From contig PMES01000025.1 of assembly GCA_003154775.1 (NCBI GenBank), positions 1-45,420 of the forward strand: DNA of 45,420 nucleotides. The letters are read 5' to 3'. The notes beneath the pieces are model-generated. The model was not told where the DNA came from and did not search any database. It saw nothing but the letters and a program-made list of their open reading frames with translations. Shown here piece after piece: positions 10,154 through 30,423 of the stretch; position 1 is the first letter of the stretch; each line of letters begins with the position of its first letter. The DNA comes from Acidobacteriota bacterium. Its GTDB lineage: Bacteria > Acidobacteriota > Terriglobia > Acidiferrales > UBA7541. The position numbers and the translations under genes are program-made.

Positions 10154-10161
10154 CCCAGACT

Positions 10162-10902: not shown

Positions 10903-10937
10903 ACATTTGGGACTGCTGTAAATTTGAATTGCCACAT

Positions 10938-11927: not shown

Positions 11928-11937
11928 GTAAAAAAAC

Positions 11938-13038: not shown

Positions 13039-13136
13039 CCCTGGCGGGTAGTGCAGCCTCTATGATCTGGCTGCGATTCACGGTGCGAGGGTACCAATCT
13101 CGAAGGTTAGAGGGCGTGGCGGACGCCGCGGGTGGC

Positions 13137-13604: not shown

Positions 13605-13700
13605 CGGCACCTTCTCCGTCAGATTCAACCACAGCGCACGCTCCACAGCAAGCACACCGGCGGGACGGTTGTGGGCGCTGGCGCACCCTGCGGTTGTAGG

Positions 13701-13720
13701 TGTGGGGCTTTAGCCCCGCA
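13701..13720. repeat. Short hairpin repeat
   Basis: GGGGCTTTAGCCCC at 13704-13717 forms a perfect stem with flanking partial pairing. It lies in the hairpin-rich stretch 13656-14091, which holds no gene that I can support. Confidence 0.5.
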
Positions 13721-13763
13721 GGAAGGCACGACTGAGGAGGCTGCAGGGAAAATACACACAATT

Positions 13764-13861
13764 GTCATTCCGAGCCCCGTTCGCTTTTTGAACGGGGTGA
13801 GGAATCTGCTTTTTCCTTGGACTTTTACGAAAAGCAGATCCCTCGCTCCGCTCGGGATGAC
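13764..13861. repeat. Inverted pair of family C repeats (98 bp)
   Basis: The left end is GTCATTCCGAG; the right end, read on the other strand, is GTCATCCCGAG. Both arms continue to a (A/G)ATCTGCTTTT block, so the whole element can fold on itself like a REP doublet. The right arm is the inverted partner of the single copy at 8631-8655. Confidence 0.65.
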
Positions 13862-13928
13862 AAAGGCAAGAAACGGCAAGAGCGGCCTGGGGGGCCGCGG
13901 GCACGATCCCGACGGGAGTCGGGACAGG

Positions 13929-13946
13929 TGTATCGTGCCCCTACGG
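13929..13946 (-). repeat. Short interspersed repeat, family A (inverted copy)
   Basis: TGTATCGTGCCCCTACGG is the reverse complement of the copy at 8360-8377 with one difference. Confidence 0.65.
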
Positions 13947-14033
13947 GCGGGAGAATGGCGGGATGCGGGGCCAAGATCATGGGATTGTGCGGACATGGGG
14001 CGCAGGAGTCCTGCGCGCCTACAAGGATAAGAA

Positions 14034-14077
14034 AAACCCAAGAACCGATCTGAAGATCGGCCACTACAAAAGAAAGA
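14034..14077 (-). repeat. Hairpin repeat, family B (inverted copy)
   Basis: This 44-base copy matches the reverse complement of 8441-8484 at 41 positions. Its hairpin is CCGATCTTCAGATCGG, where the left copy has CCGGTCTTCAGACCGG; two of the three differences preserve one base pair. On the minus strand it lies 14 bases after the SDR stop codon and is followed by TTCTTGGGTTTTTCTT, so it may terminate the leftward directon. Confidence 0.7.
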
Positions 14078-14091
14078 AGGAAGCTGCGCGG

Positions 14092-14958
<867 letters not shown>

Positions 14959-16260
14959 TCACAGAGCGGGTGGTCTGCTGGTGGACGCAATGCGAATCAA
15001 ATGGGTGTCCCCGAGGGTGTTGCCGGCGGGATCGAACGCAATGGCTCCGCTGACGCCGGCGAATCGATTGCCCGCGGCCAAATAGTCTCGCAGGCGGGAA
15101 CGGTTCGCTCCGGCCACGCGCAACGCCTGTGCCACCAGATGCACGGCATCGTACGTTTGCATCGCCGCGAAACTTGGCCAAGCGCCGGTTTTCGCACGAT
15201 AGCGTTCCTGGAACGCCAGCGTGTCGCGGCGCGTTGCGCCCGCGGCCGAAGCCGTTACCCAAGTGCCTTGCGGAAGTCCGCTCGGGGCAGGCGTGCCGCC
15301 ATCGGCAATGTCAAACGCATTGCCTGCAACGGACGCGACCGCCTTACGGCAAAGATAAACCGGCCGGGCGAATTTGTTTGCGCCGAGCAGCGGAAGAAGC
15401 CGTGCGGCCAACGGCGAGCTCATCCAAAGAACAATCGCATCCGGTGCACTCGCCTGGGCTCGCGCGGCAGTCGCTTCCAGGGCCGCGCTTGAGGAAGAAA
15501 TCTCCAAGCGCTCGGGCGGAATTCCGCGCAGATGCTTCGCGGCTTTCTCGAATTCATCTCCGCCGACCCGGCCATCATGATCCGTTTCCACGAGCAACAA
15601 AACCTTCCTCGAGAGTGCGGTTTGATAAATCCGCGAAGCGATGGCGCGCGCTTGATCCTCATCGCTGGGCCCAAGGCGAAAAATCCACGGAATGTTGATT
15701 TGCGTGGTCGTCGCGTCGCTCGCCAGCGTGACAATCGGAATGCCGATCTTGTTCGCGATCTGCTCAGCCTGATGCGCGATATTGCCGTCAGAAGAGGTAA
15801 TCAGCGCCGCAACCCGCTCTTCGGCGATCAACTGGACCATTTCGCTGCTGGCCTGGCCCCATTGTTCCGTCTGGTTGCGTACCGCGAGCGCCAGGTGACG
15901 CCCGTCCGCGAGCGGCCCCGCAGCCTCTTCCTCCGCCAGCGCCATGTTCGCGGCTTCCAGCAAAGATTGGCCTTCCGCCGCATTTGCGCCCTGAAGCGGA
16001 AGGAGCAGTCCGATCTTCACCGTTGCGCCCTGAAGATTGGCAGCGTTTTCCCGGCCGGGCCCGCGATAAGCGACGGCGTTGCGGTCGAGAGTTGCATAGG
16101 GAGTTTGCGGAGTGATTTCATCTTGGGCCGCAGCAGAATTGGGGAGCGAAGCCATGCCCAGAAGCAACAACGCTGCGAATCTCACCAGGAATGCAACCGG
16201 CCGCTGCGCGGAACGGCCGCGTTTGTGGAAGCAGCGGCCCGGCGGTACGACCGCTGTCAT
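14959..16260 (-). CDS. Periplasmic binding protein, type 1 (Leu/Ile/Val family), second copy
   Basis: A protein of 433 residues with a basic N-terminus and a signal peptide ending near AAAQDE. The fold is that of receptor-family ligand-binding proteins: VKIGLLLPLQGANAAEGQSL, VAALITSSDGNIAHQAEQIA, then PIVTLASDATTTQI. Its ATG overlaps the stop codon of the upstream binding-protein gene by one base (TGATG), so the two are translationally coupled. No ABC permease or ATPase gene is present in the window. It could therefore deliver a ligand to an enzyme or sensor, or to a transporter elsewhere. The ligand is unknown. Confidence 0.75.
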   Translation of the reverse strand: MTAVVPPGRCFHKRGRSAQRPVAFLVRFAALLLLGMASLPNSAAAQDEITPQTPYATLDRNAVAYRGPGRENAANLQGATVKIGLLLPLQGANAAEGQSLLEAANMALAEEEAAGPLADGRHLALAVRNQTEQWGQASSEMVQLIAEERVAALITSSDGNIAHQAEQIANKIGIPIVTLASDATTTQINIPWIFRLGPSDEDQARAIASRIYQTALSRKVLLLVETDHDGRVGGDEFEKAAKHLRGIPPERLEISSSSAALEATAARAQASAPDAIVLWMSSPLAARLLPLLGANKFARPVYLCRKAVASVAGNAFDIADGGTPAPSGLPQGTWVTASAAGATRRDTLAFQERYRAKTGAWPSFAAMQTYDAVHLVAQALRVAGANRSRLRDYLAAGNRFAGVSGAIAFDPAGNTLGDTHLIRIASTSRPPAL

Positions 16261-17651
16261 CAGGGCGCTCCAGCCCCCGAGTGCGCGGCGCTGGACTCGC
16301 GGCGTTGCGCCGGCAAATAGACAAACTTTCCGCCATCCACTTTGGCCAGCGCAAGGGGAGCGATGTTGTTCAGGGTGTAGTCGAACTCTTCGCGTTCACC
16401 CACGCCGTCATAGGTCTTGCCATAATACTCGCGGAGGCCGTCCATGATCTTTCCGCGGTTGAGCCCCTTTTTCTCGATCGCGCCGATGAGGATGTTCATT
16501 CCATCGTAGGCGTACGCGGCGTAAGCATCGGGTTCTTCATTGAATTTCGCTTGATACTTTTTCCGGAATTCCTGCCATTGCGGGTCGGTGCGCGTCGGAT
16601 CCAACGGACTGGTCGTAACGACGCCTTCCGCGGCGCTTCCGGCGATCTCGAGCAGCGCGGGATAGGCCATGCGGCTGGAGCCAAAAACCGGCTGCTTCAT
16701 CCCCATGGAACGCATCTGCTTCAGAATGCGCGCGGCATCGGGCGCTTCGCCCCAGATTACCAGTCCCTCGATGTGGGCGTTCTGCAACATGCGGAGCTGC
16801 GTGGAAAAATCCTGGTCGCCGCGCTCGAATTTCACTTCCAGCGGAGGCACGCGGCCCATGCGCTTTGCTTCGTCAAAGAATTTTTCGACGCCGATGCGCG
16901 CATATCGCGAGTGCGTGCGGAACACCCCGATTTTCTTGAGCTTCAACTGTTTGAAGACATAGTCCGCCAACGTGTACCCCTGCTGCCGGTCGTCAGGAAA
17001 CGTGTGCATCAGCCAGGGGACGCGCGTTTCCGTCACCGTCGGGTCGGTGGTGCCAGTGTCCATGATGGGGAATTCCAGCTTCAGAGAGACGCGCAGCATG
17101 ATGTGCGTGGAGGCGCCGTCAATGCTTCCCAGCACCGCAACCACGTGCTCATCGAACAGCATCTTCACTGCTTCGGTGGACGAGGCGCCCCATTGCGCCG
17201 AGTCGTTATGAATTTTCAACGCGTAGGGCCTGCCGCGCGACATCCCGCTTGCTCCATACCCGCCGCGCGCGTTGGCTTCCTCCAATGCCATCTGCGCGCC
17301 GTGCAGCATGGCCTGTCCGTACGGCGCTTCATAGTTGTTTTCCAGCGGACCGAGGAATCCGATGTTCACCGTCTTGGATGTATCGATCTCTTGCACAACG
17401 CGCTCGCGCGCCGCTCCGAAGTAATCGAGCGTGTCGTTGTCGACGTACCATTCCTTGTACGGCTTGCTGAACTTCCCATACGGAACTGCTTCGTCCGGCA
17501 TGTTGGCATAGCGATGTGCGGGCGGGGCTTCAGTGGCAGGTTTCTGCGGCTCAGCCGATTGCGGCAGCGCGGAGCAGGCGAACACAAAGAAGAAGGGAAC
17601 TCCCGCGAACACGATTCTGCGCACGATTTTCCTGGCAACCTTAGACAGCAT
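16260..17651 (-). CDS. Periplasmic binding protein, type 1 (Leu/Ile/Val family), first copy
   Basis: A protein of 463 residues with an N-terminal membrane or signal segment (about 12-27). A Cys in VFAC at about 26 could be a lipid site, although Phe at -2 is unusual. A distinctive charged and aromatic block (about 47-85, KPYKEWYVDNDTLDYFGAAR) comes before the ligand-binding core (VNIGFLGPLENNYEAPYGQAM, then GASTHIMLRVSLKLEFPIMD). The gene overlaps the DAHP synthase gene by 11 bases at its start and the second binding-protein gene by one base at its end. Without a permease nearby, a sensor or carrier role is possible. Confidence 0.75.
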   Translation of the reverse strand: MLSKVARKIVRRIVFAGVPFFFVFACSALPQSAEPQKPATEAPPAHRYANMPDEAVPYGKFSKPYKEWYVDNDTLDYFGAARERVVQEIDTSKTVNIGFLGPLENNYEAPYGQAMLHGAQMALEEANARGGYGASGMSRGRPYALKIHNDSAQWGASSTEAVKMLFDEHVVAVLGSIDGASTHIMLRVSLKLEFPIMDTGTTDPTVTETRVPWLMHTFPDDRQQGYTLADYVFKQLKLKKIGVFRTHSRYARIGVEKFFDEAKRMGRVPPLEVKFERGDQDFSTQLRMLQNAHIEGLVIWGEAPDAARILKQMRSMGMKQPVFGSSRMAYPALLEIAGSAAEGVVTTSPLDPTRTDPQWQEFRKKYQAKFNEEPDAYAAYAYDGMNILIGAIEKKGLNRGKIMDGLREYYGKTYDGVGEREEFDYTLNNIAPLALAKVDGGKFVYLPAQRRESSAAHSGAGAP

Positions 17652-18540
17652 GGGCTTTCTCCTTCAGCGGCTCGACGCTGTGCGCAGCCGCGAATTTGAC
17701 AATCCTTGCCAGTGTCGCCGGACCAATGGCTTGCGCCGCATCGCACTTCGGTTTGGGCGCATCGAGCCGGTCGCTCGCCACTTCGATGATCAATCCGTGG
17801 CACCCGAATTCCACCGCTGCGCGGCTGGCCGGCTCGACCATGGCGGACACACCCGTGGCATGGCTCGGATCCACGATGACCGGCAGGAATGTGTGCTCCT
17901 TCACCGCGGGAATGACGTTCAAGTCAAGGACGTACCGCGAGTATTCGCCCGAGGGATATGCCTTGATTCCCCTCTCACACAGGACAATATTGAAATTTCC
18001 TTCCTTGGCGAGGTATTCCGCCGCGCCGAGCCATTCGCAAAGGTTTGCCGCCATTCCGCGTTTCAACAGCACGGGCTTGCCGCTGCGGCCAGCTTCCACC
18101 AGCAAGGTGTAGTTCTGCATATTGCGCGAACCGATTTGCAGCATATCGGCGTGTTCGGCGACTTGCTCGATCTGCCGGGCGTCCATCACTTCGGTAACTA
18201 CCGGCAGCCCCGTCTCCCGGGACACTTCGCGCAGAATCCGCAGTCCCTCGAGGCCAAGTCCCTGAAAATCGTGCGGCGAAGTTCGCGGCTTAAATGCGCC
18301 GCCACGGAGCATGTCCGCGCCAGCCGTCTTCACCGCGCGGGCCACTTCGAGTGTCTGCTCGAAGCTCTCGACCGAGCACGGACCCGCAATCACCACCGGC
18401 CGCGGGCCGCCGAAACAAACTCGTCCGACCTGCACCGTCCTGGTCTCCGCGTTTTCGCCGGCAAAACTATCGGTCTTGCGGCTGATGAGCGGGCAGATTT
18501 TGGAAATATCTTCTAACCGAACAATTCCTGCGATCTTCAT
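17641..18540 (-). CDS. 3-deoxy-7-phosphoheptulonate (DAHP) synthase, type I beta
   Basis: A protein of 299 residues that joins phosphoenolpyruvate and erythrose 4-phosphate, the first step of the shikimate pathway. Visible family blocks: VVIAGPCSVES (metal Cys), MLRGGAFKPRTSPHDFQG, MLQIGSRNMQNYTLL, PVLLKRGM, and VIVDPSHATG (metal His). There is a short N-terminal extension but no chorismate mutase or ACT regulatory domain. The gene is embedded between RidA (122-base gap) and the binding proteins (11-base overlap), not with other aromatic-pathway genes. That suggests a dedicated isozyme for this cluster, but it could simply be the housekeeping copy. Confidence 0.9.
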   Translation of the reverse strand: MKIAGIVRLEDISKICPLISRKTDSFAGENAETRTVQVGRVCFGGPRPVVIAGPCSVESFEQTLEVARAVKTAGADMLRGGAFKPRTSPHDFQGLGLEGLRILREVSRETGLPVVTEVMDARQIEQVAEHADMLQIGSRNMQNYTLLVEAGRSGKPVLLKRGMAANLCEWLGAAEYLAKEGNFNIVLCERGIKAYPSGEYSRYVLDLNVIPAVKEHTFLPVIVDPSHATGVSAMVEPASRAAVEFGCHGLIIEVASDRLDAPKPKCDAAQAIGPATLARIVKFAAAHSVEPLKEKAHAV

Positions 18541-18662: not shown

Positions 18663-19154
18663 TTACCGCTTGCTGGCGTCGAAGATGGCCATCGCTTCCA
18701 TCTCGACGAGCAAATCCGGCCGGCAGAGAATGGCCTGAATGCCTGTGGAAGCCGGCAAGGGATCCAATCCTTGTTCCTTGAAAAACTGCGTGCGGGTTTC
18801 GTTAAAGGCGGCGTAGTCGCGCTCGATGTCCCGCAGGTAGCAGGTGGTGCGGACTACGTCCTTCCAGGTTGCGCCCTCGGCAGCCAGCAGGCCGGTAATG
18901 TTCTGGTAGGTCCGTATGGTCTGCGCCCGGAAATCGCCTTCATGAACGGTCTTGCCGTTCTCATCAATGCTGGCCGTGCCGGAGATCAGGAGGATGGTGA
19001 CTCCCTTGATGTCCAGCCGCAGCCCGCGCGAGAACGAAGACGGCTTGGCGTAATCGAAGGCCTCGTTCAACACGGAGTGGTTGGTGATGGCCTTCTTGGT
19101 GACAACTTCCGTTTCCTTCTCGATTGGTTCAACGGCTAGCTGTGGTGTGCTCAT
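18663..19154 (-). CDS. RidA/YjgF-family protein
   Basis: A protein of 163 residues. The RidA fold is recognised by ILLISGTASIDENGKTVHEG, QNITGLLAAEGATWKDVVRT, and the end block ILCRPDLLVEMEAMAIF, where the Arg and Glu match the active-site pair of imine deaminases. The N-terminus (about 35 residues) is longer than in E. coli RidA. The ATG at 19154 is preferred over 19181 because GGAAGGGAAAG precedes it. The gene starts inside the end of the propeller gene (26-base overlap). RidA proteins hydrolyse reactive enamines and imines; which one here is unknown. Confidence 0.85.
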   Translation of the reverse strand: MSTPQLAVEPIEKETEVVTKKAITNHSVLNEAFDYAKPSSFSRGLRLDIKGVTILLISGTASIDENGKTVHEGDFRAQTIRTYQNITGLLAAEGATWKDVVRTTCYLRDIERDYAAFNETRTQFFKEQGLDPLPASTGIQAILCRPDLLVEMEAMAIFDASKR

Positions 19155-20271
19155 GGACTTTCCCTTCCTTGTTGGATTCACGAGTGGTTTCCCGGATGCC
19201 GTGGCTCAGACCCGTCGCTGTGGCCACCCAGATGTCGTCGCCCTGAAAATCCATATTCAGGATGTAGTTGTGCGCGAGGGAAGTGGACGTTTCCATCGTC
19301 GTCACTTTTTTGTCCGGCGCAGTAATGACGATCTCTCCGCGGCCGGTTTTTGCGTTGGGCCGGTAGGTGACCCAGGTGTTGGTCTTGAAGTTCAAATAAC
19401 TCAGGCCTTTGTCCGTGCAGGCCCAGACTTCATCGCCGCGAGACTTGGGCGCGTTGATGAAGTCGGAGGCCAGACCGCTGTCCATGGACAGGTAGTTGTG
19501 CCAATTCCGTCCGTCATATCCGCTGAGTCCAAAGTAAGTGGACGCCCAGAACATCTGGGTGTCTTTGTTCCAGGCAATGTTGCTGACGATGATGTGAATC
19601 AAACCCTGGTTCTTAAACAGCACAATCTCCATTTCCCCGTCGGGGTCCGTATACGGTTTCCAATAACCGCCAGCAATGTCGTACTCCAGGATTCCGCCGC
19701 CCCAGATGGCCACGTACACTTTTTTCTCGGCGACAGCGATGCCGTAAGACCATGGTTCTTGAATGGGCGCATTTTTCTCGCTGAAGATGGACCATTCCCC
19801 CGTCCGGGTGTTGAACCGGTTGGTGCCGGCCGTCGTTGCCACCCATACGTACTCATCCTGAATAGCCACGCCGTAAGTAATGTCGTTTGCCAATCCGCTG
19901 GTCAGGTTCGTGTAATTGTGGAAGTGCCCTCCCGAAAGGCGGCTCAGCCCGCCGAACGTCGCGAGCCAGACATCACCCGAGGCCGGGTCGACGGCGATAC
20001 CCGTTACCACGCGGTTCGCTAGCCCGTCTTCCGGCTTATAGACTTTCTGGATCTTGCCCTTCTCGATCAGGACCAAGCCATTCTCGGTACCCGCCCAAAC
20101 GCGGTCGCCATCCACTGCAACACTCAGCACTTTTTCGTCGGGCATGCCATTTGCCGTGGTGAAGTTTTCCCAATGGGTATAAAGCGGAGGCTTTTGAGCG
20201 CATGCTGGCCCCAACAGCGCCAAGGATCCGACCACTCCAAGAAACCACCGCCACATCTGTTTGCTCTTCAT
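19129..20271 (-). CDS. Secreted beta-propeller (two-component-regulator propeller repeats)
   Basis: An exported protein of about 380 residues with a signal peptide (LLGPACAQ-K) and repeated blades of the Reg_prop type: VWAGTENGLVLIEKG, VWLATFGGLSRL, VWVATTAGTNRF, FWASTYFGLSGYDG, VWACTDKGLSYL, IWVATATGLSHG. In most homologues such propellers are sensor domains of histidine kinases; here there is no kinase, so it is a free periplasmic propeller. The start at 20271 has a GGAG site. It follows the YVTN/peroxidase fusion by 48 bases and overlaps RidA, supporting one operon. Confidence 0.8.
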   Translation of the reverse strand: MKSKQMWRWFLGVVGSLALLGPACAQKPPLYTHWENFTTANGMPDEKVLSVAVDGDRVWAGTENGLVLIEKGKIQKVYKPEDGLANRVVTGIAVDPASGDVWLATFGGLSRLSGGHFHNYTNLTSGLANDITYGVAIQDEYVWVATTAGTNRFNTRTGEWSIFSEKNAPIQEPWSYGIAVAEKKVYVAIWGGGILEYDIAGGYWKPYTDPDGEMEIVLFKNQGLIHIIVSNIAWNKDTQMFWASTYFGLSGYDGRNWHNYLSMDSGLASDFINAPKSRGDEVWACTDKGLSYLNFKTNTWVTYRPNAKTGRGEIVITAPDKKVTTMETSTSLAHNYILNMDFQGDDIWVATATGLSHGIRETTRESNKEGKVHEHTTASR

Positions 20272-20319
20272 GCTTGACTCCAAAATCACGTGCTTCTCAT
20301 TTCCGCCAAAATCTGCTCT

Positions 20320-22233
20320 CTACAGAGACTTCAAGAACTCGATCAGATCGTTCAACTCTTCCTTGGACATGTCCGAAGTCACACCGTGTTTGTCCTCTGG
20401 GTTGTAAGTAGTCCAGAGTTCCTCGAGCGACTTCGCCTCTCCGCTGTGCATATAAGGAGGCCGCTGCACGATGCGGTCAAGCTGGGGCACGTCAAATAAC
20501 CCCGAGGTGTCGTACTGATTGGCTGTGCCCACGTCAAAGCTCGTTCTTGCCGTGTAATGTGTCGCCGGTGTATGGCAGGTGTCGCAATTCTTCCGGAAAA
20601 AGATCGCTCGGCCGCGCTCCTGCGCCGGCGTCAACTCGCCATTCGCCGCAAGATGGCGACTGGGTGGCAGCGGGATGGATTTGATGAACGCAACCAGGTC
20701 TGCTAATTGCGTGGTGTTGAACCCCTCGGAATGAAACAGGAACTTGGCGATGCGCGGCCCGCACTGCGTTTCCAGGTCGGGATTGTGGCCGTTCCATTTG
20801 TAGGGTGCCGTCTCCGCTATTCCTCGCAACGTGCGATTGGCCACGCGGTCGCGCCCCAGTTGCGGTGTTTCCAGATTCCACGCGACTCCATCGATATGGT
20901 TGTCGGGGTGGCAGGTGGCGCAGGCAAACTGGCCCTGAAAACAAAAGCGCGCGGCATGAAACATCTGCTCGCCCCGGCGCAATTGGGTCAACTGCTTCGG
21001 GCCACCGAGATCAATTGTTCCGCGCACCTGCAAGCGCGGAATGTCCACCACCGTCAAGCTATCGCTCAAGCGGTTTACGACATACGCAGACCGTCCGTCG
21101 GGAGAGATCGCAATCCCCATCGGGTTCGCTCCCGTTTCCAGACGGCGCTCTACAATTTCCCTCGCCGAATCCAGCCGGTTCGCCAACTCCTCGGCGGGCA
21201 CCTGGTGCAGCCGGCGTTCCAGCTTCGCCGTATCGACCGCCGAAACAGTGTCGGCTTCGGATGAGGTCACCAGGGCGTGCCGCCCATCCGGCGTGAACGC
21301 CACACCGTTCGTTCCCGCATAGTAGGAATCCACATCGTCCAGCAAAATTTGGGTCACGCTGGATTTCGTTTGCGTGGCGCCGTTCGTTCCAGCGACCCGC
21401 ACAACCGCCATCCCATGGGTTAATATCCAGCCTTGCGCCACCTGAATCAGCGGGTTCAAATTCTTCGGCCGTATGAACGGCACCAGGAGATACCCACCCT
21501 TGGGTCCCGGCGCCTCGGCGATGTGCCGCAACTCCAGCACTCCCGGAATCTCTATGCGCTCAGCGACCCGCTGCTTTGCGGTGTCAATCACCACCAGTTC
21601 AGAAACCGGCGGCTCATTCGGCGAGCCCAGGTGCCCCAGCAGGTTCGCAACGTACACGCGGCGCCCGTCCAGAGACAACGACAAATGATGCGGCGAACGC
21701 CACGACGCCAGCCGCTTGATTTCCGCGCCGATGGTCAGATCCAGCAGCGACACGTCGTTCCCCATGCTGTTGGCGACGTACAGCACCTTCCCGGAGCGAT
21801 CGGTCGTCACGCCCACCGGACCCCAACCTGTCGCAAACGTTCGCCGCTGCGTAAAGCTCGCGGCATCGATTTCGCTCACGGTGTCGTCCCACTCGTTGGA
21901 AACGTAGAGCGTGCGGCCGTCCGGCGAAACGGCAACGTCTTTCGGCTTGTGGCCCACCTTCACCTTCGCGACCACGCGCCGCGTGCGCACGTCCACGGCC
22001 AGCAACGAATCGTCGTCTTCACAAACAACGTAGAGCTTCGTGCCGTCATGGGAGAATTTCAGTTCCACCGGGGTGAGGTAATTCTCTTGTGAAGCACTTG
22101 CTGCCGACGGTGTCCCCGCCTGTGCGGCATACAGCCGTGAAATTCCGAATGTCGCCACAATGGCGCTGGCGAGAACCAGGGAGCCCGCCAGAGCGCCAAG
22201 CCTCCGCAATCGAGTTGTGAGTTTCGCGCTCAC
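20320..22233 (-). CDS. YVTN beta-propeller fused to a di-haem cytochrome c peroxidase-like domain
   Basis: A periplasmic redox protein of 637 residues. A signal peptide or anchor lies at about 15-37. A seven-bladed-type YVTN propeller follows (about 50-405; repeats LYVVCEDDDSLLAVD, LYVSNEWDDTVSEID, AYVVNRLSDSLTVVD). The last domain is of the MauG/CcpA type with two haem sites, CATCH at 438-442 and CDTCH at 550-554, plus YMHSGEAKSLEELW. A propeller joined to a di-haem peroxidase domain is the arrangement of the fused beta-gamma subunit of hydrazine synthase in some anammox bacteria, as I recall it. GTG is the start, preceded by GGAGG; it overlaps the CRTAC1 stop as GTGA. Substrate unknown. Confidence 0.85.
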   Translation of the reverse strand: MSAKLTTRLRRLGALAGSLVLASAIVATFGISRLYAAQAGTPSAASASQENYLTPVELKFSHDGTKLYVVCEDDDSLLAVDVRTRRVVAKVKVGHKPKDVAVSPDGRTLYVSNEWDDTVSEIDAASFTQRRTFATGWGPVGVTTDRSGKVLYVANSMGNDVSLLDLTIGAEIKRLASWRSPHHLSLSLDGRRVYVANLLGHLGSPNEPPVSELVVIDTAKQRVAERIEIPGVLELRHIAEAPGPKGGYLLVPFIRPKNLNPLIQVAQGWILTHGMAVVRVAGTNGATQTKSSVTQILLDDVDSYYAGTNGVAFTPDGRHALVTSSEADTVSAVDTAKLERRLHQVPAEELANRLDSAREIVERRLETGANPMGIAISPDGRSAYVVNRLSDSLTVVDIPRLQVRGTIDLGGPKQLTQLRRGEQMFHAARFCFQGQFACATCHPDNHIDGVAWNLETPQLGRDRVANRTLRGIAETAPYKWNGHNPDLETQCGPRIAKFLFHSEGFNTTQLADLVAFIKSIPLPPSRHLAANGELTPAQERGRAIFFRKNCDTCHTPATHYTARTSFDVGTANQYDTSGLFDVPQLDRIVQRPPYMHSGEAKSLEELWTTYNPEDKHGVTSDMSKEELNDLIEFLKSL

Positions 22234-23978
22234 CGGCTGGAACCTCCAGGAGTCGCCGCTAGACGTTCACCCGGCTCGGTAATGGGCAGAATCTGGTCTG
22301 CTTTGACGTTTTCCAGTGTTTGCACGGTTCCACTCGGCCAATGGATTGTCAGTCGATCCACTTGCGTATGCGAACCCAAACCAAAATGGGGCCGCGGATC
22401 GTTTTGCGAGAGGTATCCCGATTGCGGCACATTCTCCACCATTTGCCGGAGATCGCCCGCCACCGCTTCGATGCGCGCTCCAAAACCATCGCGATTGCTC
22501 TTCGTTCCTGTCAGCTTCAATGTCAGCCAGTGGTTCCGCGCGCTGCCCGCCGGAGGTTTCGCGTGCAGCAAAATACCTTTGCCGCCCAAAACGACGATGA
22601 ACGCATCAACGTAGCCGTCGTTGTCATAGTCCGCGAAGCATGCGCCCCGTCCGACTTTCTTGGTCCTGAAGTAGCTCCCGGATTCATCGGAAATATCCGT
22701 AAACGTCCCATTGCCGTTATTGTGAAGCAGAGAATCTTCCATCGGGATGAGCCAGTGCAGTCCGCCATTGACGATGAACAGGTCTTTCCAGCCGTCATTG
22801 TCGAAATCCAGGAACCCGTCGCCCCAGCCCACATATTGGCCGGCAACCCGCGCGATGCCTGCATCCGCCGTTGTGTCGATGAAGAATCCTTCCTTGGGGG
22901 AATTCCGGAACAGGCGGTGATAGCGCATGTCGGAGACGAAGAGGTCCAGCGCGCCGTGGTTGTCATAGTCCGCGAAGATGGGTCCCATGGCCGAAGGCGT
23001 ATCGCCATTGGTGCCATACGCCACGTTTTGCTCGAGCGCTACGTTCGTGAAAGTGCCGTCATGATTGTTGTGGTAGAGGTAGCTTTCCATCTGGTCGTTA
23101 GCCACATAGATGTCCGGCCAGCCGTCACCATCAAAATCGCCCACGGTCACGCCCATCGCTCTCCCGGGAGGATTCGCGATTCCCGCGCGTTCGGACACGT
23201 CGGTAAACGTGCCATCGCCATTGTTGTGGAATAGTCGGTTCGAGTCCCCTTCGTAATCCAGCGGGCCGGCAAACGCTTCGGCCGAATAAAAGACCTTTTT
23301 GACTTTCGGATCGAATTTCAGGTAATTGCCGACGAACAGGTCCAACTTGCCGTCACGGTCGTAGTCCACAAACGCCGCGCCGATTCCCCAATGGTTGTTT
23401 TGCACGCCGGCTTTTTCGGTTACATCGGTAAACGTGCCGTCGCCGTTGTTGTGGTAGAGAATCGAGGAGTTCCAATTGGTGACATAGATGTCTTCGTAGC
23501 CGTCGTTGTCGTAATCCCCGACGGTCACGCCCATGGCAAAACCCTTGCCGGCCACGCCCGCTTCTTGCGTGACATCGGTAAAAGTGCCGTCGCCATTGTT
23601 GCGGTAGAGGTGGTTCGTCGCGTCCTTGCCATCCGGCTTGGAATGATCCGTAACGCCTTCGAGGTAGCGGCCGCTGAGAACGTAGAGGTCCAGGAGGCCA
23701 TCATTGTTGTAGTCAAACCAGGCGCAACCTTGTCCCGCGGATTCCAGAACCGAACTCAGTTTCTGCTCGCCAAACGAATTCACAAAGTTCAAGTGCGCTT
23801 TATCGGTCACATCCTCGTAAGTGGGATACTTTGAAACAGCGCTGGCAGGCACGCTTGGCGGTGCAGTGACCTTTTGCGCCAGCGCGAGCGATGCGAATGC
23901 CAGCCCTGCCATCGCCGTCAAGCCAAACAAACAAAGGCGGCGCGAAAACTTAGTGCGCGTGTGCTGCTTCTGCCGCAT
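22230..23978 (-). CDS. CRTAC1-like FG-GAP/VCBS repeat protein with ASPIC/UnbV domain
   Basis: A secreted protein of about 582 residues with a signal peptide (SLALAQ-K). Multiple integrin-like calcium-binding repeats (DYDNDGYEDIYVTNWN, DFDGDGWPDIYVANDQ, DFDNDGWKDLFIVNGG) alternate with HNNGDGTFTDV units. The C-terminal ASPIC/UnbV domain is shown by RDGFGARIEAVAGDLRQM, PHFGLGSHTQVDRLTIHWP and the following VQTLENVKAD. The start at 23978 gives 7 bases to the GGAG site and lies inside the HzsA-related gene end (29-base overlap). Such proteins often sit beside periplasmic redox enzymes; a scaffold or chaperone role is inference. Confidence 0.85.
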   Translation of the reverse strand: MRQKQHTRTKFSRRLCLFGLTAMAGLAFASLALAQKVTAPPSVPASAVSKYPTYEDVTDKAHLNFVNSFGEQKLSSVLESAGQGCAWFDYNNDGLLDLYVLSGRYLEGVTDHSKPDGKDATNHLYRNNGDGTFTDVTQEAGVAGKGFAMGVTVGDYDNDGYEDIYVTNWNSSILYHNNGDGTFTDVTEKAGVQNNHWGIGAAFVDYDRDGKLDLFVGNYLKFDPKVKKVFYSAEAFAGPLDYEGDSNRLFHNNGDGTFTDVSERAGIANPPGRAMGVTVGDFDGDGWPDIYVANDQMESYLYHNNHDGTFTNVALEQNVAYGTNGDTPSAMGPIFADYDNHGALDLFVSDMRYHRLFRNSPKEGFFIDTTADAGIARVAGQYVGWGDGFLDFDNDGWKDLFIVNGGLHWLIPMEDSLLHNNGNGTFTDISDESGSYFRTKKVGRGACFADYDNDGYVDAFIVVLGGKGILLHAKPPAGSARNHWLTLKLTGTKSNRDGFGARIEAVAGDLRQMVENVPQSGYLSQNDPRPHFGLGSHTQVDRLTIHWPSGTVQTLENVKADQILPITEPGERLAATPGGSSR

Positions 23979-25443
23979 CATTCTTCTCCAAAAGCGCAGT
24001 TGGTGTATCAAAACGCTTCAATGTGAGTGGCCAGCGGTTTTCTGGCGCCAGCGCCTTGTCGCCGTGGCATCCGGGGCACCCGTGCTGTTCCCCGGGGCGC
24101 GTCCAGATCCAACTACGTTCCGCCACAATCGTTTGCCCGTTGGCATCCAGGAGCTCGAAACGCACCGGTTGGTTCGCCGGCACTTCCACGTAGAAAGACC
24201 CGTCCTTCTCAACTGGTGCTTCGCCCAGGCTGCGCTCCCGGGCGCCCGTGCTTTGCAACGAAATCACGCGCACGCGCGCAATCGCTGCCGCCAGCCGCCC
24301 CTTTATGCCTTCCGAAGAAACGTAGCTGTTCAACGAAATGAAGTAGCCGGACTTGGACTCCATATTCAGCATGCTCCAGAATCGCTTAGGCACCGGATTG
24401 GCGACGAGCGGCACGGCCTGGATGCTCGATAGCTTTGCGTCGCTGTAGATCAGATCCCCATCCATTTGCTTTTTCAGATCGAAGGTGTACAAGTCGAATT
24501 TCGCTTGCGCTGCCCCTTGCGATGCGCTATTTCGGGAGACAATCAGGCTGCCGGCGGACAAGGGCCGCGGCGATCGATATTTCGCCGCGTGGCTGCCCAC
24601 AGCAGACTCGCCGGGATCACCCTTGCGCACCTCGGCTAAGGCGCCGCCCGAGGTCTGGCCGGCGTTGCTTCTCCTCACAAAGATGACGGAACCGTCTTCG
24701 AGTTCCGCAGCGTCGTCTCTTGTGACTGAAGATTGGTGTTCGCAGCGAAGGGTTTCCAGCGCGGCGCCGTCTGGCAGCAAGGTATAGAGCAAGCGCGTCT
24801 TCCCCGCTGCCTCGCTCTCCTGCAAGGGAGAGGAAGCGGAAGCGAGCACGCGCCCATCGCGCAGAACGGTTTCCAGCCAGAAATTGCCGGGGCCGAAAGT
24901 GATGCGATGCATCTGCGATCCATCCGTTTTGGAAACCGCCAGATAAGACTCGGGCCGCCCGCTCTTCAGGCTCTCCACAGTGAAGACGATTTCCCCGTCC
25001 GGGAGATACGCAGCGCGCAGGCAATCCTCAGTGCAATTCGTGATTTGGCGTTTCTCCGAACCGTCCGCGTTCATCTCCCAGATCTGCCATTTCGCGCCGG
25101 CATTTTTCTGGGCCGAAAAAAGTATCTTCGCGCCGCTGAAATCGATTTGCGGGTCCGCCGCCGCAAAGAACTCAGGTGTCAGTTCGAGGGGCCGTTTGGA
25201 TTCAGAGGGCAGGCGCGCGATTCGGCTTCCGCGCGGGAAACGCTGCGGTGCATTCCCGTCAAGAATTGTCTCCGCTTGGACAAAGAGAAGGTCGGGTCTC
25301 GGTGACAGCCTGGCGGTCCTCTGTGGCTGTGCTGCTTCACCTGTGGACCCGAAGAGCAAGCTCGCGGGGAACAGGCAAAGTGCGACTGCGATCGTTTTAG
25401 GAAGGCAGGCGAAGAACTTCCCTTGGCGCACCCCACGAACCAC
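23950..25443 (-). CDS. HzsA-related periplasmic mono-haem propeller protein
   Basis: A protein of 497 residues starting at a GTG with a signal peptide (about 15-38). The N-terminal two thirds resemble TolB/PD40 propeller blades (ILFSAQKNAGAKWQIWEMN, DGSEKRQITNCTEDCLRAAY, LPDGEIVFTVESLKS). A beta-rich region (RVISLQSTGARERSLGEAPV, then DGSFYVEVPANQPVRFELL) leads to one haem-binding site CPGCH at about 456-460 followed by APENRWP. This combination matches what is usually called HzsA-related, after the alpha subunit of hydrazine synthase. It is shorter than real HzsA and has one haem instead of two. It is the first gene of the directon, divergent from the hydrogenase operon. The reaction is unknown. 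Confidence 0.75.
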   Translation of the reverse strand: MVRGVRQGKFFACLPKTIAVALCLFPASLLFGSTGEAAQPQRTARLSPRPDLLFVQAETILDGNAPQRFPRGSRIARLPSESKRPLELTPEFFAAADPQIDFSGAKILFSAQKNAGAKWQIWEMNADGSEKRQITNCTEDCLRAAYLPDGEIVFTVESLKSGRPESYLAVSKTDGSQMHRITFGPGNFWLETVLRDGRVLASASSPLQESEAAGKTRLLYTLLPDGAALETLRCEHQSSVTRDDAAELEDGSVIFVRRSNAGQTSGGALAEVRKGDPGESAVGSHAAKYRSPRPLSAGSLIVSRNSASQGAAQAKFDLYTFDLKKQMDGDLIYSDAKLSSIQAVPLVANPVPKRFWSMLNMESKSGYFISLNSYVSSEGIKGRLAAAIARVRVISLQSTGARERSLGEAPVEKDGSFYVEVPANQPVRFELLDANGQTIVAERSWIWTRPGEQHGCPGCHGDKALAPENRWPLTLKRFDTPTALLEKNDAAEAAHAH

Positions 25444-25884: not shown

Positions 25885-27036
25885 ATGACTCCCAAGGCTC
25901 CTAGATTTAACAACTGCGCTGTACTGAGCCCGCAGCAATTGGACCAATTGCTTCAGGTTCTGATCAAACGGGATTACGAAGTCCTGGGTCCCACCATCCG
26001 CGAAGGCGCCGTGGTGTACGACCATGTGGGCTCGACGAAGGACCTCCCTGCTGGTTGGACCGACGAACAGGCTGGCGGAAAATACCGGCTGAAGCGCCGC
26101 GAGGACGACGCGCTATTTGGATTCGTCGGCGGAGCACATTCCTGGAAGAAATTTGTTTTCCCGCCGGCCATGCGCTTGTGGCAGGCCCACCGCTCTAACG
26201 GGCTTTTCCAAATCGTGCCGGAGACGCGCAAGGCCACCAAGTTCGCCTTCATCGGCGTGCGCGCGTGTGAACTGCACGCCCTGAGCATCCAGGACAAAGT
26301 ATTTCTGAAGGGTCCCTACGTCGATACTGTCTATAAATTGCATCGCGAAAATATATTCATCGTCGCGGTGGATTGTGTCCAGGCGGGTGGCACGTGCTTC
26401 TGCGCGTCCATGAACACAGGCCCCAAAGCCGGTGCGGGTTTCGACCTGGCGCTCACCGAAGTTCTCCACGAGGGGCGTCACCATTTCATCGTGCGCATCG
26501 GCACAAAGGCAGGGGCCGATCTGCTCTCGCAGGTTGCGCACGAGGAAGCGACGGCGGCCGACGTGGAGTTTGCCGAAAACCTTGTTGCCGAAGCCGCCAA
26601 ACATATGGGCCGCAGCCTCGACGTCAACGGCATCAAGGAAATGCTCTACCGCAATATCGAGCATGTGCGCTGGGATCAAGTGGCGGACCGGTGCTTGAGT
26701 TGCTCCAACTGCACGATGGTGTGCCCGACGTGTTTCTGTTCCACGGTCGAAGATCTCACCGATTTGTCCGGGCAGCAGGCGGAGCGCTGGCGCAAATGGG
26801 ATTCCTGCTTTACGACCGATTTCTCCTATATCCACGGCAGCAGCGTGCGCTCGACGCCGCGATCCAAATATCGCCAGTGGATGATGCATAAGCTGGCTTA
26901 TTGGATCGACCAGTTTGGCATTTCGGGGTGCGTGGGATGCGGACGTTGCATCACCTGGTGCCCTGTGGGGATTGATATCACCGAAGAGGCGCGCGTGATT
27001 CGCGAAGGCGAGACGCCCGCCAGCGCCGCCGGGTGA
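25885..27036 (+). CDS. hydB: Group 3b-like NiFe hydrogenase beta subunit (4Fe-4S protein)
   Basis: A cytosolic iron-sulphur protein of 383 residues. It passes electrons between the hydrogenase core and the flavin subunit. Two C-terminal 4Fe-4S motifs are seen: CLSCSNCTMVCPTC, and CVGCGRCITWCP near the end. FAFIGVRACELHALSIQDKVF and GGTCFCASMNTGP are typical of the sulfhydrogenase beta family. A GGGAGCGAGA site precedes the ATG. It is the first gene of a compact six-gene operon whose order (beta, cyclic-nucleotide-binding, gamma, delta, alpha, protease) fits bacterial group 3b NADP-linked hydrogenases. Confidence 0.9.
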   Translation: MTPKAPRFNNCAVLSPQQLDQLLQVLIKRDYEVLGPTIREGAVVYDHVGSTKDLPAGWTDEQAGGKYRLKRREDDALFGFVGGAHSWKKFVFPPAMRLWQAHRSNGLFQIVPETRKATKFAFIGVRACELHALSIQDKVFLKGPYVDTVYKLHRENIFIVAVDCVQAGGTCFCASMNTGPKAGAGFDLALTEVLHEGRHHFIVRIGTKAGADLLSQVAHEEATAADVEFAENLVAEAAKHMGRSLDVNGIKEMLYRNIEHVRWDQVADRCLSCSNCTMVCPTCFCSTVEDLTDLSGQQAERWRKWDSCFTTDFSYIHGSSVRSTPRSKYRQWMMHKLAYWIDQFGISGCVGCGRCITWCPVGIDITEEARVIREGETPASAAG

Positions 27037-27048
27037 GGAGGAGTGCTA

Positions 27049-27513
27049 ATGATTCACACGCTGGAGACCGTCATCAGGGAACATCCATTCTTCCATGACT
27101 TCCCTGAAGAACATTTGTCGTTCATCACCGGCTGCGCGAAAAATGTCCAGTTCCCGGAAAAGCATTTTATTTTTCTGGAAGGGGATCCCGCCGACGAGTT
27201 CTATTTCATCCGCGAAGGCATGGTTTCGGTCGAGATGGTGATTCCCCACCTTGGCGCAACCACGGTGCAGACCCTCGGCGAAGGCGAGATTCTCGGCTGG
27301 TCGTGGGTTTCGCCGCCATACCGCTGGCATTTTAATGCCAAGACACTGAAGCGCACGCGCGCGCTGGTCTTCGACGCAAAGTGCCTCCGCGCCAAGTGCG
27401 AGGAAGACCATAACCTGGGCTACGAAATGTTGAAGCGTTTTGCCAGCATCATCACGTCGCGGCTCGATGCGACACGCCTGCAGCTATTGGATATTTATGG
27501 CCACAATGATTGA
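27049..27513 (+). CDS. Stand-alone cyclic-nucleotide-binding domain protein
   Basis: A protein of about 154 residues consisting of a single CAP-type beta-roll: [40 protein letters not shown], the phosphate-binding-like [12 protein letters not shown], and a C-terminal helix of the CRP dimerisation type. It ends before any helix-turn-helix, so it should not bind DNA by itself. The ATG at 27049 is chosen over the GTG at 27043 because AGGAGGAG is then 5 bases away. Its place inside the hydrogenase operon suggests that it adjusts the enzyme or its assembly in response to a small ligand; this is inference. Confidence 0.85.
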
Positions 27514-28363
27514 AAATGAAGTCCCCCAGGGACTCAACGCGGACCCCATGATTCCGCAGCTCTACCGCGTTGACCGGGTGCGGGATGAAACGGACGACAC
27601 TTTCACGTTTAGCCTGGTTCCCGAAAACGGTGAGGCTAAGATCTCCTTCCTCCCCGGCCAGTTCAACATGCTTTATGTTTTTGGAACCGGCGAGGTGCCC
27701 ATTTCCATCAGCGGCAATCCCGCGCTGACCTCCGTGCTGGAACACACCACGCGCAGCGTGGGCATCGTCACCAAGGCCATGTGCCTGCTGAAACCCGGGG
27801 ACCAAATCGGCGTTCGCGGGCCGTTCGGCAGCCACTGGCCCCTGAACGAAGAAAATGGCCGCGACTTGGTGATCATATCCGGCGGCATCGGGCTGGCGCC
27901 GTTGCGTCCTGTGCTGTATTTCCTGATGGCGCAGCGCGAAAAATATCGCAAGATCGTTTTGCTGTACGGCGCGCGCGCGCCCGAAGATATTCTCTTCAAG
28001 AAAGAGCTGGAGCGCTGGCGCGGCAAGTTCGACCTGGAGGTACAAGTCACCGTGGATCGCGCCGCCAGCGGCTGGCGCGGAAACGTGGGTGTCGTGACGC
28101 CGCTAGTTGCCCGTGCCCCCTTCGATCCATCCAACACCGTTGCACTCCTCTGCGGCCCCGAGGTGATGATGCGCTTTGCCGTCATGGAGCTGCAGAAGCG
28201 CGGCGTCCCCCACGACCGGATATACCTTTCGATGGAGCGCAATATGAAGTGCGCGCTGGGCTATTGCGGGCACTGCCAGTACGGCCCCGGCTTTGTCTGC
28301 AAGGATGGACCCGTTTACCGCTTTGACCAGATTGTCTCAGTTTTTGGCAAGTCGGAGGTCTGA
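27497..28363 (+). CDS. hydG: Hydrogenase gamma subunit (FAD/NAD(P)-binding diaphorase)
   Basis: A protein of about 288 residues of the ferredoxin-NADP reductase type. It contains the FAD-binding region ([20 protein letters not shown]), the NAD(P)-binding loop ([18 protein letters not shown]), and the C-terminal [13 protein letters not shown]...C set for a 2Fe-2S cluster. It links the iron-sulphur chain to NAD(P)(H). The start at 27497 lies inside the end of the preceding gene (17-base overlap); the ATG at 27506 is possible too. The delta subunit ATG is two bases after its stop codon. Confidence 0.9.
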
Positions 28364-28364
28364 A

Positions 28365-29144
28365 ATGGCTGCCGTGCGCAAACCCAAGATTGCCGTTTGG
28401 AAGTTCGCCTCCTGCGACGGATGCCAGTTGAGCCTGCTGGACTGCGAGGACGAACTTCTTTCCGTCGTCGGCGCCGTCGAAATCGCCAATTTCCCCGAAG
28501 CTACCCGCGCCGTCGTCAAAGGCCCTTACGATATTTCTCTCGTCGAAGGCTCCATCACTACCCCGCACGACGAAGAACGCATTCACACGATTCGCCGCTC
28601 TTCCAAGCTGCTGATCACCATCGGCGCGTGCGCCACTTCCGGCGGCATCCAGGCCTTGCGTAATTTCAAGAACGTCGCCGATTTCATCCCGATGGTGTAC
28701 GCCAAGCCGGAATACATTAAAACGCTCAGCAAATCCACCCCGATCAACGACCACGTCTTCGTCGATTTTCAATTGCGCGGCTGCCCCATCAACAAACTGC
28801 AGCTCGTCGAAGTTCTAAACGCCTTCCTGAACCGCAGGAAACCGGTGACCCCGGCGCATGGCGTGTGCATGGAGTGCAAGCGGCGCGGGACCGTTTGCGT
28901 CATGGTCGCGAACGGCACGCCGTGTCTGGGTCCCGTTACCTTGGCCGGGTGCGGCGCCCTTTGCCCCGCCTACGATCGCGGCTGCTACGGGTGCTTTGGA
29001 CCAAAGGAAACACCCAATACCACTTCGATGAGCGCGGGCTGGACCGCCCTGGGCGTCACCGAGCCGGAACTTATGCGCGCCTTCCGTTCCTTCAATGCTT
29101 ACGCCGAAGCGTTCCGGAAAGAGAGCGAAGCGCATGAACGCTAA
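28365..29144 (+). CDS. hydD: Hydrogenase delta (small, iron-sulphur) subunit
   Basis: A NiFe hydrogenase small subunit of 259 residues carrying the iron-sulphur relay next to the active site. The proximal cluster motif is [19 protein letters not shown] near the N-terminus, with [10 protein letters not shown] and [10 protein letters not shown] completing it. A Cys-rich C-terminal part ([41 protein letters not shown]) binds the other clusters. There is no Tat signal, consistent with a cytosolic enzyme. GGAGGTC precedes the ATG. It overlaps the alpha subunit gene by 11 bases. Confidence 0.92.
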
Positions 29145-30423
29145 GACCATCAAGGTCGATGTCCTTGCACGCGTCGAGGGTGAGGGCGGCTTGTTCGTCC
29201 GGGTGCGCGATCAGCGCGTCACGGAAGTGAAGCTCAACATCTTCGAACCGCCGCGCTTCTTTGAAGCTTTCCTCCGGGGCCGCAAATTCAGCGAAGCTCC
29301 CGATATCACCGCGCGCATCTGCGGCATCTGCCCGGTCGCCTATCAAATGAGTTCCTGCCACGCTGCCGAAGACGCTTTCGGGGTCCACATCGACGGCCCC
29401 ATTCGCGAACTGCGCCGCCTGCTTTACTGCGGCGAGTGGATTGAAAGCCACGCGCTGCACATCTATCTGCTCCATGCCCCGGATTTTCTCGGCTACGAGG
29501 ATGTCATCCAAATGGCCAAGGATCATCCGGACGCCGTGCAGCGTGGGTTGCGCCTGAAGAAAATCGGCAACCAAATCATGACTGTGGTAGGCGGCCGCGA
29601 AATCCATCCCATCAACGTGCGCGTCGGTGGATTCTATAAAGCGCCGTCCAAGCAGCAGCTCAAAGGTCTGACCGAGGATCTGAAGTGGGCGCGTGACGCC
29701 GCCGTGGAAACTTGCCGCTGGGTTTCCACGTTCACGTTTCCCGATTTTCAGCGTGATTACGAATTTGTCGCCTTGCGTCACCCGGATGAGTATCCTTTGA
29801 ACGAAGGGCGCCTCGTTTCCAGCAAGGGGCTCGATATTCCCATCCAGGAATACGAGCAGCACTTCGCCGAAGAGCACCGCAAGCATTCCAACGCCTTGCA
29901 TTCCGTTCTACTCGAGCGCGGCTCCTACTTTGTTGGCCCGCTGGCCCGTTACAATTTGAATTTCGATAAACTCACGCCCCTGGCGCAGAAAGCGGCGCGT
30001 ACCGCAGGTCTGACCGCTACATGCCGCAATCCCTTCCAGGGAATTCTTGTGCGCGCGGTGGAAACCGTGTATGCCTGCGAAGAGGCCTTGCGCATCATCG
30101 CCCATTACGAAGTGCCCGATAAGCCTTACGTGGATGTCACGCCCCGTGTCTCCATTGGACATGGCTGCACCGAAGCGCCTCGCGGGATCCTCTATCACCG
30201 CTATCGTTACGACGATCGCGGCCTCATCTCGAACGCCAAGATCGTTCCTCCGACCTCCCAGAACCTGAAAACCATCGAGGAAGATCTCTCCGAGTTTGTC
30301 AGCGCGCGTCTGCATCTCCCCAACGATCGCCTGCAATGGCAATGCGAACAAGCCATCCGCAACTACGATCCCTGCATCTCCTGCGCTACGCACTTCCTGA
30401 AACTCCGGGTAGAGCGCGAATGA
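29134..30423 (+). CDS. hydA: Hydrogenase alpha (large, NiFe catalytic) subunit
   Basis: The catalytic subunit, 429 residues. The four nickel-binding cysteines are present: [11 protein letters not shown] at about 61-71, and DPCISCATH near the C-terminus. A nine-residue tail (FLKLRVERE) follows the His and is expected to be removed after Ni insertion. Tyr stands where several other NiFe groups have His in the first motif. The protease gene begins within the stop codon (ATGA overlap), matching this maturation step. The group assignment (3b, bidirectional, NADP-linked) rests on the operon and subunit set. The accessory hyp genes are not in the window. Confidence 0.92.

Follow-up and report, generated by a model that had tools for sequence, protein, structure and literature searches.

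A gene cassette of hydrazine synthase homologues in an acidobacterium, often accompanied in relatives by DAHP synthase and Rid-family genes

The stretch of DNA analysed here, referred to as the window, comprises positions 1 to 45,420 (45,420 nt) of contig PMES01000025.1 from assembly GCA_003154775.1 of a soil-type member of the Acidobacteriota. On its minus strand, between positions 25443 and 14959, lies an operon-like run of eight genes whose neighbours overlap or are separated by no more than 122 nt. The run includes homologues of hydrazine synthase (HZS), the anammox signature enzyme, which was long thought to have no homologues in other species (PMC12758564), together with an additional DAHP synthase and a Rid-family protein. 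In order of transcription the genes are:

23950..25443, minus strand: HzsA-like (α) protein, 497 aa; TolB/HZS-type N-terminal propeller and HZS_alpha domain, with haem motif CPGCH at residues 456-460.
22230..24011, minus strand: CRTAC1-type protein, 593 aa; FG-GAP repeats (FG-GAP_3) and an ASPIC/UnbV domain (UnbV_ASPIC).
20320..22233, minus strand: HzsB-HzsC-like (β-γ) fusion, 637 aa; YVTN-type (YncE/lactonase-type) propeller and a di-haem half of MauG/cytochrome c peroxidase (CCP) type (CCP_MauG).
19129..20289, minus strand: free Reg_prop propeller, 386 aa, conserved with the cassette.
18663..19181, minus strand: Rid-family protein, 172 aa; motifs SGTAS, HEGD, PASTG and CRPDLLVE, without the RidA arginine.
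17641..18540, minus strand: extra type-I DAHP synthase, 299 aa, lacking about 64 N-terminal profile positions, with a loop reading PSGEYSRY.
16260..17651, minus strand: periplasmic binding protein 1 (Peripla_BP_6), 463 aa.
14959..16260, minus strand: periplasmic binding protein 2 (Peripla_BP_6), 433 aa.

A first-pass annotation of the window had drawn attention to the first four of these genes, all of which lie on the minus strand where it placed them, and had described them as one overlapping block. The HzsA-like and CRTAC1 genes do overlap, by 62 nt as called (from a TTG start; an in-frame ATG further downstream is possible), as do the CRTAC1 and fusion genes, by 4 nt, but a gap of 30 nt separates the fusion from the free propeller. 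The four-gene block is real but not the whole, as the same run continues through the Rid protein, the DAHP synthase and the two Peripla_BP_6 proteins. By eye, signal-peptide-like N-termini are present on the first four gene products and on both binding proteins, and on neither the Rid protein nor the DAHP synthase. The Reg_prop match of the free propeller is weak (24.1 bits against a cut-off of 20.4), and no single stretch of the protein passes. An acidobacterial host, also proposed at that stage, agrees with the lineage of the assembly; among named records Candidatus Acidiferrum typicum UBA7541 comes closest, with an HzsA-like protein 90% identical. The HzsA-like gene occurs as a single copy in its own genome, which also encodes cytochrome c assembly proteins (PF01578, three matches).

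The HzsA-like protein matches the Pfam HZS_alpha family (PF18582) with 73.9 bits against a cut-off of 26.6, over profile positions 39-97 of 98. Compared with the HzsABC structure of Kuenenia stuttgartiensis (5C2V), the single sequence finds 5c2v_A at E 9e-19, and its family profile does so at 6e-61. The best match of its predicted fold (predicted local distance difference test, pLDDT, 79.6 overall) is 5c2v_D, with a Z of 35.7 over 431 aligned residues and a root-mean-square deviation of 3.0; TolB follows at Z 26.6. TolB was rejected as the true relative because it covers the propeller alone and scores 9 Z units lower. This monomer prediction does not contradict the HzsA-like core that the first-pass annotation had expected around CPGCH, with the restriction that residues 459-467, at the end of the motif, fall below a pLDDT of 50, so that the geometry of the haem pocket is not resolved.

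The fusion gave a similar picture. Its single sequence finds 5c2v_B at E 6e-32 and 5c2v_C at E 3e-20, values that become 4e-72 and 1e-37 with the family profile. In its predicted model (pLDDT 75.9), the propeller matches 5c2v_B best, with a Z of 46.3 over 337 residues and the next structure at 36.8. Together, the profile matches and predicted folds show that the α and β-γ proteins are truly homologous to hydrazine synthase, as had been proposed from the first reading of the sequence.

These homologues depart from the anammox enzyme at positions that matter to it. In hydrazine synthase, the iron of haem αI is ligated by Tyr591, and His587 and Cys303 sit on zinc (PMC12758564, PMC12607021; residue numbering of hydrazine synthase is taken from these papers). 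The window's HzsA-like protein has one CxxCH motif only and ends 37 residues after it, so that haem αII is absent, as the first-pass annotation had noticed. No tyrosine occurs anywhere downstream of H460, and none was found within 8 residues after the haem motif in any of the 89 HzsA-like proteins with the motif pattern (95 examined). The position of Cys303 is taken by the His of LRCEHQ; this position is variable among relatives, and Cys303 is reportedly not kept in all anammox bacteria either (PMC12758564). In the di-haem half of the fusion, which carries the motifs CATCH and CDTCH, the residues aligned to γ-subunit positions of interest include W480, C491 and H596. Alignment of 64 of the 65 complete fusions places W480 at γHis144, a position with Trp in 63 of the 64; C491 corresponds to γCys165, which is thus kept here and is Cys in 37 and Asp in 22 of the aligned fusions. 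H442, H554 and H596 are present in all 64, and counting along the alignment places K479 at γArg143 and I495 at γAsp168. A simpler pattern count, whose pattern occurred in only 60 of 85 fusions (Trp 60/60, Cys 34/60), is superseded by the alignment.

Because residues important in hydrazine synthase are absent, the cassette probably carries out a different chemistry and makes no hydrazine, in line with the different reaction suggested earlier. It is thus very improbable that the locus encodes a true hydrazine synthase of a new anammox-like organism. Such an enzyme would account for the shared fold and subunit types, for the retained γCys165 and for a multi-haem cytochrome (PF13447) that a general search recovered once in the same genome (C83:25319-25810, L207 998-2286, in two neighbouring reading frames, 140 and 289 aa long). 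Against it stand the loss of the Tyr591-type ligand, haem αII, γHis144 and γAsp168, the occurrence of the cassette in cultured Maribacter, and scores far below the NCBI equivalog or exception cut-offs: 106.4 of 800 bits for hzsA and 183.6 of 1250 bits for hzsBC.

The Trp at the γHis144 position has been equated with the catalytic Trp of MauG and CCP (PMC12758564). The di-haem half resembles MauG, bacterial di-haem peroxidases and MbnH in its family-model and PDB matches as well as in this Trp; unlike them, it sits behind a YVTN-type propeller and is encoded with an HzsA-like partner. The kinship with MauG and MbnH and the near-invariant Trp, along with the presence of several dedicated partner proteins, could be explained if the di-haem half oxidised a Trp or Tyr of a partner (CRTAC1 or a binding protein) into a protein-derived cofactor. 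We regard such a maturation system as rather improbable, since it leaves the HzsA-like haem subunit, the Rid protein and the DAHP synthase unexplained.

Variation in haem content among relatives touches both proteins. In some relatives the fusion carries 4 or 8 additional haem motifs, or the α protein carries 3, which fits a role in electron transfer. Those on the α protein are three additional C-terminal CxxCH motifs in two genomes of the same genus (L042, 8683-10482, plus strand; L043, 7472-9262, minus strand), where the extra region of L042 resembles Cytochrome_C7. In another relative (L038, 12569-15322, minus strand), the HzsA-like protein is fused to a formylglycine-generating (FGE-sulfatase) domain, with both parts well above cut-off.

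Parts of this arrangement have been described before. The window shares with K. stuttgartiensis HzsABC the α fold, the HZS_alpha domain, the αI CxxCH, the β propeller, the di-haem γ and the position of the third thioether cysteine, and with Scalindua hydrazine synthase the β-γ fusion. It differs from the K. stuttgartiensis enzyme in lacking haem αII, the Tyr ligand and γAsp168, in having Trp for γHis144, in the upstream position of the α gene, and in the added CRTAC1 protein, propeller, binding proteins, Rid protein and DAHP synthase. HzsA-like genes beside fused HzsBC-like genes were reported outside anammox bacteria in Phycisphaerae UBA1845 and in KSB1, and HZS-like genes of this kind were proposed in 2023 to form a broader family acting on other substrates (PMC10732223). 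Three of the seven UBA1845 metagenome-assembled genomes (MAGs) of that study (OFTM371, OFTM250 and OFTM174) are among the relatives found here (best 80 of at least 497); its authors considered anammox possible for UBA1845, whereas the residues examined here argue against it. In December 2025, Hagglund et al. reported HZS homologues with adjoining CRTAC1 and two binding proteins, listed the acidobacterium Paludibaculum fermentans among the carriers and proposed that non-anammox homologues do not make hydrazine (PMC12758564). As set out in that paper, the α gene lies upstream of CRTAC1 and then of fused β-γ in clades I and II, αII and the last ~100 aa are missing in clades II and III, two substrate-binding proteins follow downstream in clade III, and Trp occupies the γHis144 position in clades I-III. 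The window is like these clades in each respect, and its active-site losses agree with theirs, except that an equivalent of γCys165 is reported there for clade I only. The homology to HZS, the lost haem and the co-location of the genes, as first proposed for the window, are supported here; the idea of HZS-related systems outside anammox bacteria was already in print (PMC10732223, PMC12758564).

The Rid protein and the DAHP synthase are a different matter. A search of the main text of PMC12758564 for 'RidA' and 'DAHP', which did not extend to its figures (Fig. 4c may show them) or supplements, gave no match, and no link of either enzyme with HZS homologues came up in the literature passages searched. 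As far as these sources reach, what is new here is that the two genes travel with the HZS-like cassette; HZS homologues outside anammox bacteria, CRTAC1 and the binding proteins were already known.

To describe the cassette in relatives, we scanned the window's own genome and 60 relatives for PF18582 and found it in 7 of the 61; the window's genus, represented by 36 genomes, accounts for four of these. Among 396 genomes of the phylum, 15 besides the window's own have a match of at least 104 bits; a count of 227 carriers among the 396 was rejected, since short propeller or CxxCH stretches make up the bulk of the listed matches. Searching named genomes yielded at least 497 relatives, of which the best 80 were used. 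By record title these 80 include Acidobacteriota, Bacteroidota, Verrucomicrobiota, Planctomycetota, Omnitrophota, Gemmatimonadota and others; in the Gemmatimonadota locus, the HzsA-like gene alone was found. Some MAG labels are doubtful, because three loci (L101, L106 and L107) carry near-identical DAHP synthases and HzsA-like proteins under three phylum names. Cultured carriers include Maribacter aquimaris, M. polysiphoniae DSM 23514, Opitutaceae EW11 and Acidobacteria AB60; Maribacter are aerobes.

From 107 sequences (the window and L038-L143) we removed L056, L125 and L135, for which the filter kept no HzsA match of at least 50 bits, and 9 duplicates, leaving 95 unique loci, 49 of them well flanked (at least 3 kb upstream and 8 kb downstream). 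Co-location counts in these 49 are lower bounds, as the overlap filter drops the Rid gene of L053 and genes of L055 that are present in another comparison. The fusion occurs in 48, the free propeller in 45 and CRTAC1 in 37; 45 loci have one or more binding proteins, and 32 have two or more. The genes thus stay together in many relatives instead of being scattered, and the added propeller noted in the first-pass annotation is a regular member. Rid is present in 36 of the loci, DAHP synthase in 25, either in 38 and both in 23; the gene density of the window's own genome, a value from one genome, would predict about 1.3% per locus for DAHP synthase and about 0.9% for Rid. HZS homologues therefore often lie in a conserved multi-gene cassette across several phyla, cultured bacteria included, and hzs-like matches in metagenomes do not suffice to call anammox.

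The cassette Rid proteins form a recognizable group. The window's protein is 37% identical to its nearest paralogue in the same genome. Of 54 Rid copies from cassette loci, 53 carry SGTAS and 37 carry C-R-x-(D/E)-L-L-x-E, whereas none of 8 ordinary Rid paralogues has either motif; in Bacteroidota and some Acidobacteriota cassette copies, CW replaces CR in the latter motif. Four other SGTAS copies outside the cassette are second Rid loci or a copy outside the fetched stretch. SGTAS and C-R-x-D-L-L-x-E are shared with the FkbO/Hyg5 chorismatases, and the window's protein has both the catalytic Glu and the subfamily Cys of the second motif. Five relatives have a long form of 375-447 aa, four in cassette loci and one (L206) in a separate Rid-DAHP synthase pair. 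The profile of this long form finds 5ag3 at E 4e-20 and FkbO (4bps) at 4e-14, aligning to both halves. The record of 5ag3 is titled 'putative pteridine-dependent dioxygenase', and we take it to be the Hyg5 chorismatase; its chain has Glu at 334 and Cys seven residues earlier. The catalytic Glu of Hyg5 is numbered 334, with a Cys seven residues before it in Nat-hyg5 (PMC7170507), and all five long forms keep the catalytic Glu and subfamily Cys. In contrast to FkbO and Hyg5, the window's Rid is single-domain, and both it and the long forms stay below the family cut-off.

Rid and DAHP synthase genes also pair away from the cassette: G091 has a second such pair, and so does G260, there with a long Rid. 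The pairs at L204 (9536-10938, plus strand) and L206 (8356-10499, minus strand) have no HzsA-like gene within the fetched stretch; one lies beside polyphosphate kinase 2, and the other has the long-form Rid and radical-SAM genes nearby.

The cassette DAHP synthase passes the cut-offs of the type I β models (TIGR01361, 316.6 against 267.75 bits; NF006421, 360.3 against 335). Its alignment starts at position 65 of a 338-position model, and the missing N-terminal part is presumably the regulatory one. It carries PSGEYSRY in place of the ETxTRN loop seen in most others aligned and keeps the other motifs compared. The window's own genome has three other DAHP synthases and one more distant relative. 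For a tree, 67 regions were found and 47 rows used (31 from cassettes, 16 from elsewhere), after dropping L158 and rows with stops, of fewer than 250 aa or near-identical to others. The cassette enzymes fall into three groups among the rest, with 5 label changes, all forced by supported branches; a single origin of the cassette enzymes found no support. This pattern suggests that they were recruited repeatedly, which would point to a functional need for a DAHP synthase. Both it and the Rid gene are variably placed: DAHP synthase opens the run in Acidobacteriaceae, separates the two binding-protein genes in several Bacteroidota and follows Rid in the window's relatives. In one genome (G007; L043, 2071-2607, minus strand) no DAHP synthase lies between Rid and the first binding protein, where its close relative G010 has one; G007's best DAHP synthase reaches no more than 47% identity.

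Beyond the eight genes, 26 flank families recur in at least 3 loci, and representatives of 12 were scanned with Pfam; the largest family was judged by eye to be a shadow reading frame and ignored. In 9 loci (L040, L065, L068, L069, L071, L073, L075, L082 and L089) a same-strand GMC oxidoreductase follows downstream; an amidase occurs in 6 and molybdenum hydroxylase subunits in 5. None of the scanned families is constant across loci. The GMC oxidoreductase and amidase, like the two amino-acid-type binding proteins found in many loci, would suit oxidation of a compound taken from outside, such as an amine, a sugar or an aromatic. The binding proteins would then capture it, Rid would hydrolyse a reactive imine or enamine, a role for which its family, with imine and aminomuconate deaminases, offers precedent (PMC4433059), and DAHP synthase would meet a secondary metabolic demand. 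We consider this explanation unlikely, if by no means far-fetched: no ABC permease or ATPase appeared among the 12 of 26 flank families scanned, and the window's Rid aligns the Ser of PAST to the Arg of PAR in 2dyy and so lacks Arg105, the residue that binds the carboxylate in imine-hydrolysing RidA (PMC4433059).

Regulatory genes recur upstream. Of the 8 loci in one flank family, 7 (L040-L043, L066, L067 and L076; L040 and L067 are one contig) have a Crp/Fnr regulator directly upstream on the same strand, at 267-472 nt. Some Bacteroidota and Verrucomicrobiota loci, and one from Acidobacteriota, have two-component genes still further upstream (LytTR regulator, 4 loci; histidine kinases, 3 + 3). 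Sensor proteins are among the known carriers of Reg_prop domains. These regulators and the Reg_prop propeller raise the idea of a sensing complex, with propellers and binding proteins registering a ligand or redox state and the haems relaying the signal. We hold it to be improbable: most two-component genes lie at a distance of 1-8 kb, frequently on the opposite strand, none is constant across loci, and the peroxidase-type active-site residues are strictly kept.

Our preferred interpretation, put forward tentatively and with somewhat less than even confidence, is that the four-gene block forms the core of a non-anammox HZS-homologue cassette of eight genes. Its products would include a haem complex in the periplasm that carries out peroxidase-like chemistry, makes no hydrazine and is linked to an aromatic derived from chorismate, the substrate being putative. 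The six proteins with signal-like N-termini would form or serve this complex. Its Trp-containing γ-type haem may perform a peroxidase- or MauG-like oxidation of a small molecule, and the α haem, lacking the catalase-like Tyr ligation seen in hydrazine synthase, would serve as an additional redox or catalytic centre. The α/β-γ complex could exchange electrons with cytochrome c, CRTAC1 and the free propeller would act as structural partners, and the two binding proteins might present or sense a small ligand. DAHP synthase opens the shikimate pathway. Its N-terminally shortened form here and a Rid with chorismatase-type motifs, as the cytoplasmic partners, make it conceivable, with less certainty, that the ligand or substrate is an aromatic acid derived from chorismate; the two enzymes would raise chorismate flow or divert it to a hydroxybenzoate-like compound. 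Of the two substrates suggested by the first-pass annotation, nothing was found that points to a nitrogen compound; the cofactor precursor is nearer to what the co-travelling enzymes indicate, chorismate or aromatics, and stands as a candidate.

Several observations weigh against this interpretation. The model of the fusion's di-haem half is of low confidence, and the γ likeness and haem geometry come from sequence alignment alone. The window's Rid scores higher with the ordinary Rid model (TIGR00004, 56.3 bits) than with the chorismatase model (TIGR04444, 33.4 of 325 bits), missing both cut-offs; none of eight Rid copies scanned reaches the 325 bits (best 68, long forms 46-68), and the short-form family profile matches single-domain Rid structures before FkbO. 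With the ETxTRN loop lost, the window lineage's DAHP synthase may use an aldehyde other than erythrose 4-phosphate. On the tree, gains of this gene cannot be told from losses. With presence counts being lower bounds, no DAHP synthase was seen near the cassette in 24 of the 49 well-flanked loci and no Rid in 13, so each seems dispensable. Finally, the 12 of 26 flank-family representatives scanned included no exporter or aromatic-tailoring enzyme.

The frequent presence of shikimate- and chorismate-linked enzymes nonetheless provides a concrete lead to what the relatives of hydrazine synthase do. A broader proposal, which we regard as doubtful, is that hydrazine synthase is one offshoot of a large and widespread enzyme system. 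In its ordinary members, a DAHP synthase that lacks the N-terminal regulatory part would join a chorismatase-type Rid of one domain in making a chorismate-derived aromatic, to be oxidised or used by a periplasmic HZS-family haem complex equipped with dedicated binding proteins and propellers. If so, the single-domain Rid would be a living model of what the two-domain chorismatases arose from.

Two other gene groups lie in the window. A NiFe hydrogenase set (Fe-S protein, cNMP-binding protein, FAD/NAD protein, small and large subunits; 25885-30423, plus strand) diverges from the cassette; it was rejected as part of the system, as it lies beside the block solely in the near-identical relative L039 among 26 loci (threshold >45 bits). 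On the cassette's other side, the plus-strand genes at 9140-14496 encode an XhoI-like restriction endonuclease adjacent to an N6/N4 DNA methylase, a SIR2_2-like protein (just below cut-off) and a GmrSD_N protein, and look like a defence island.

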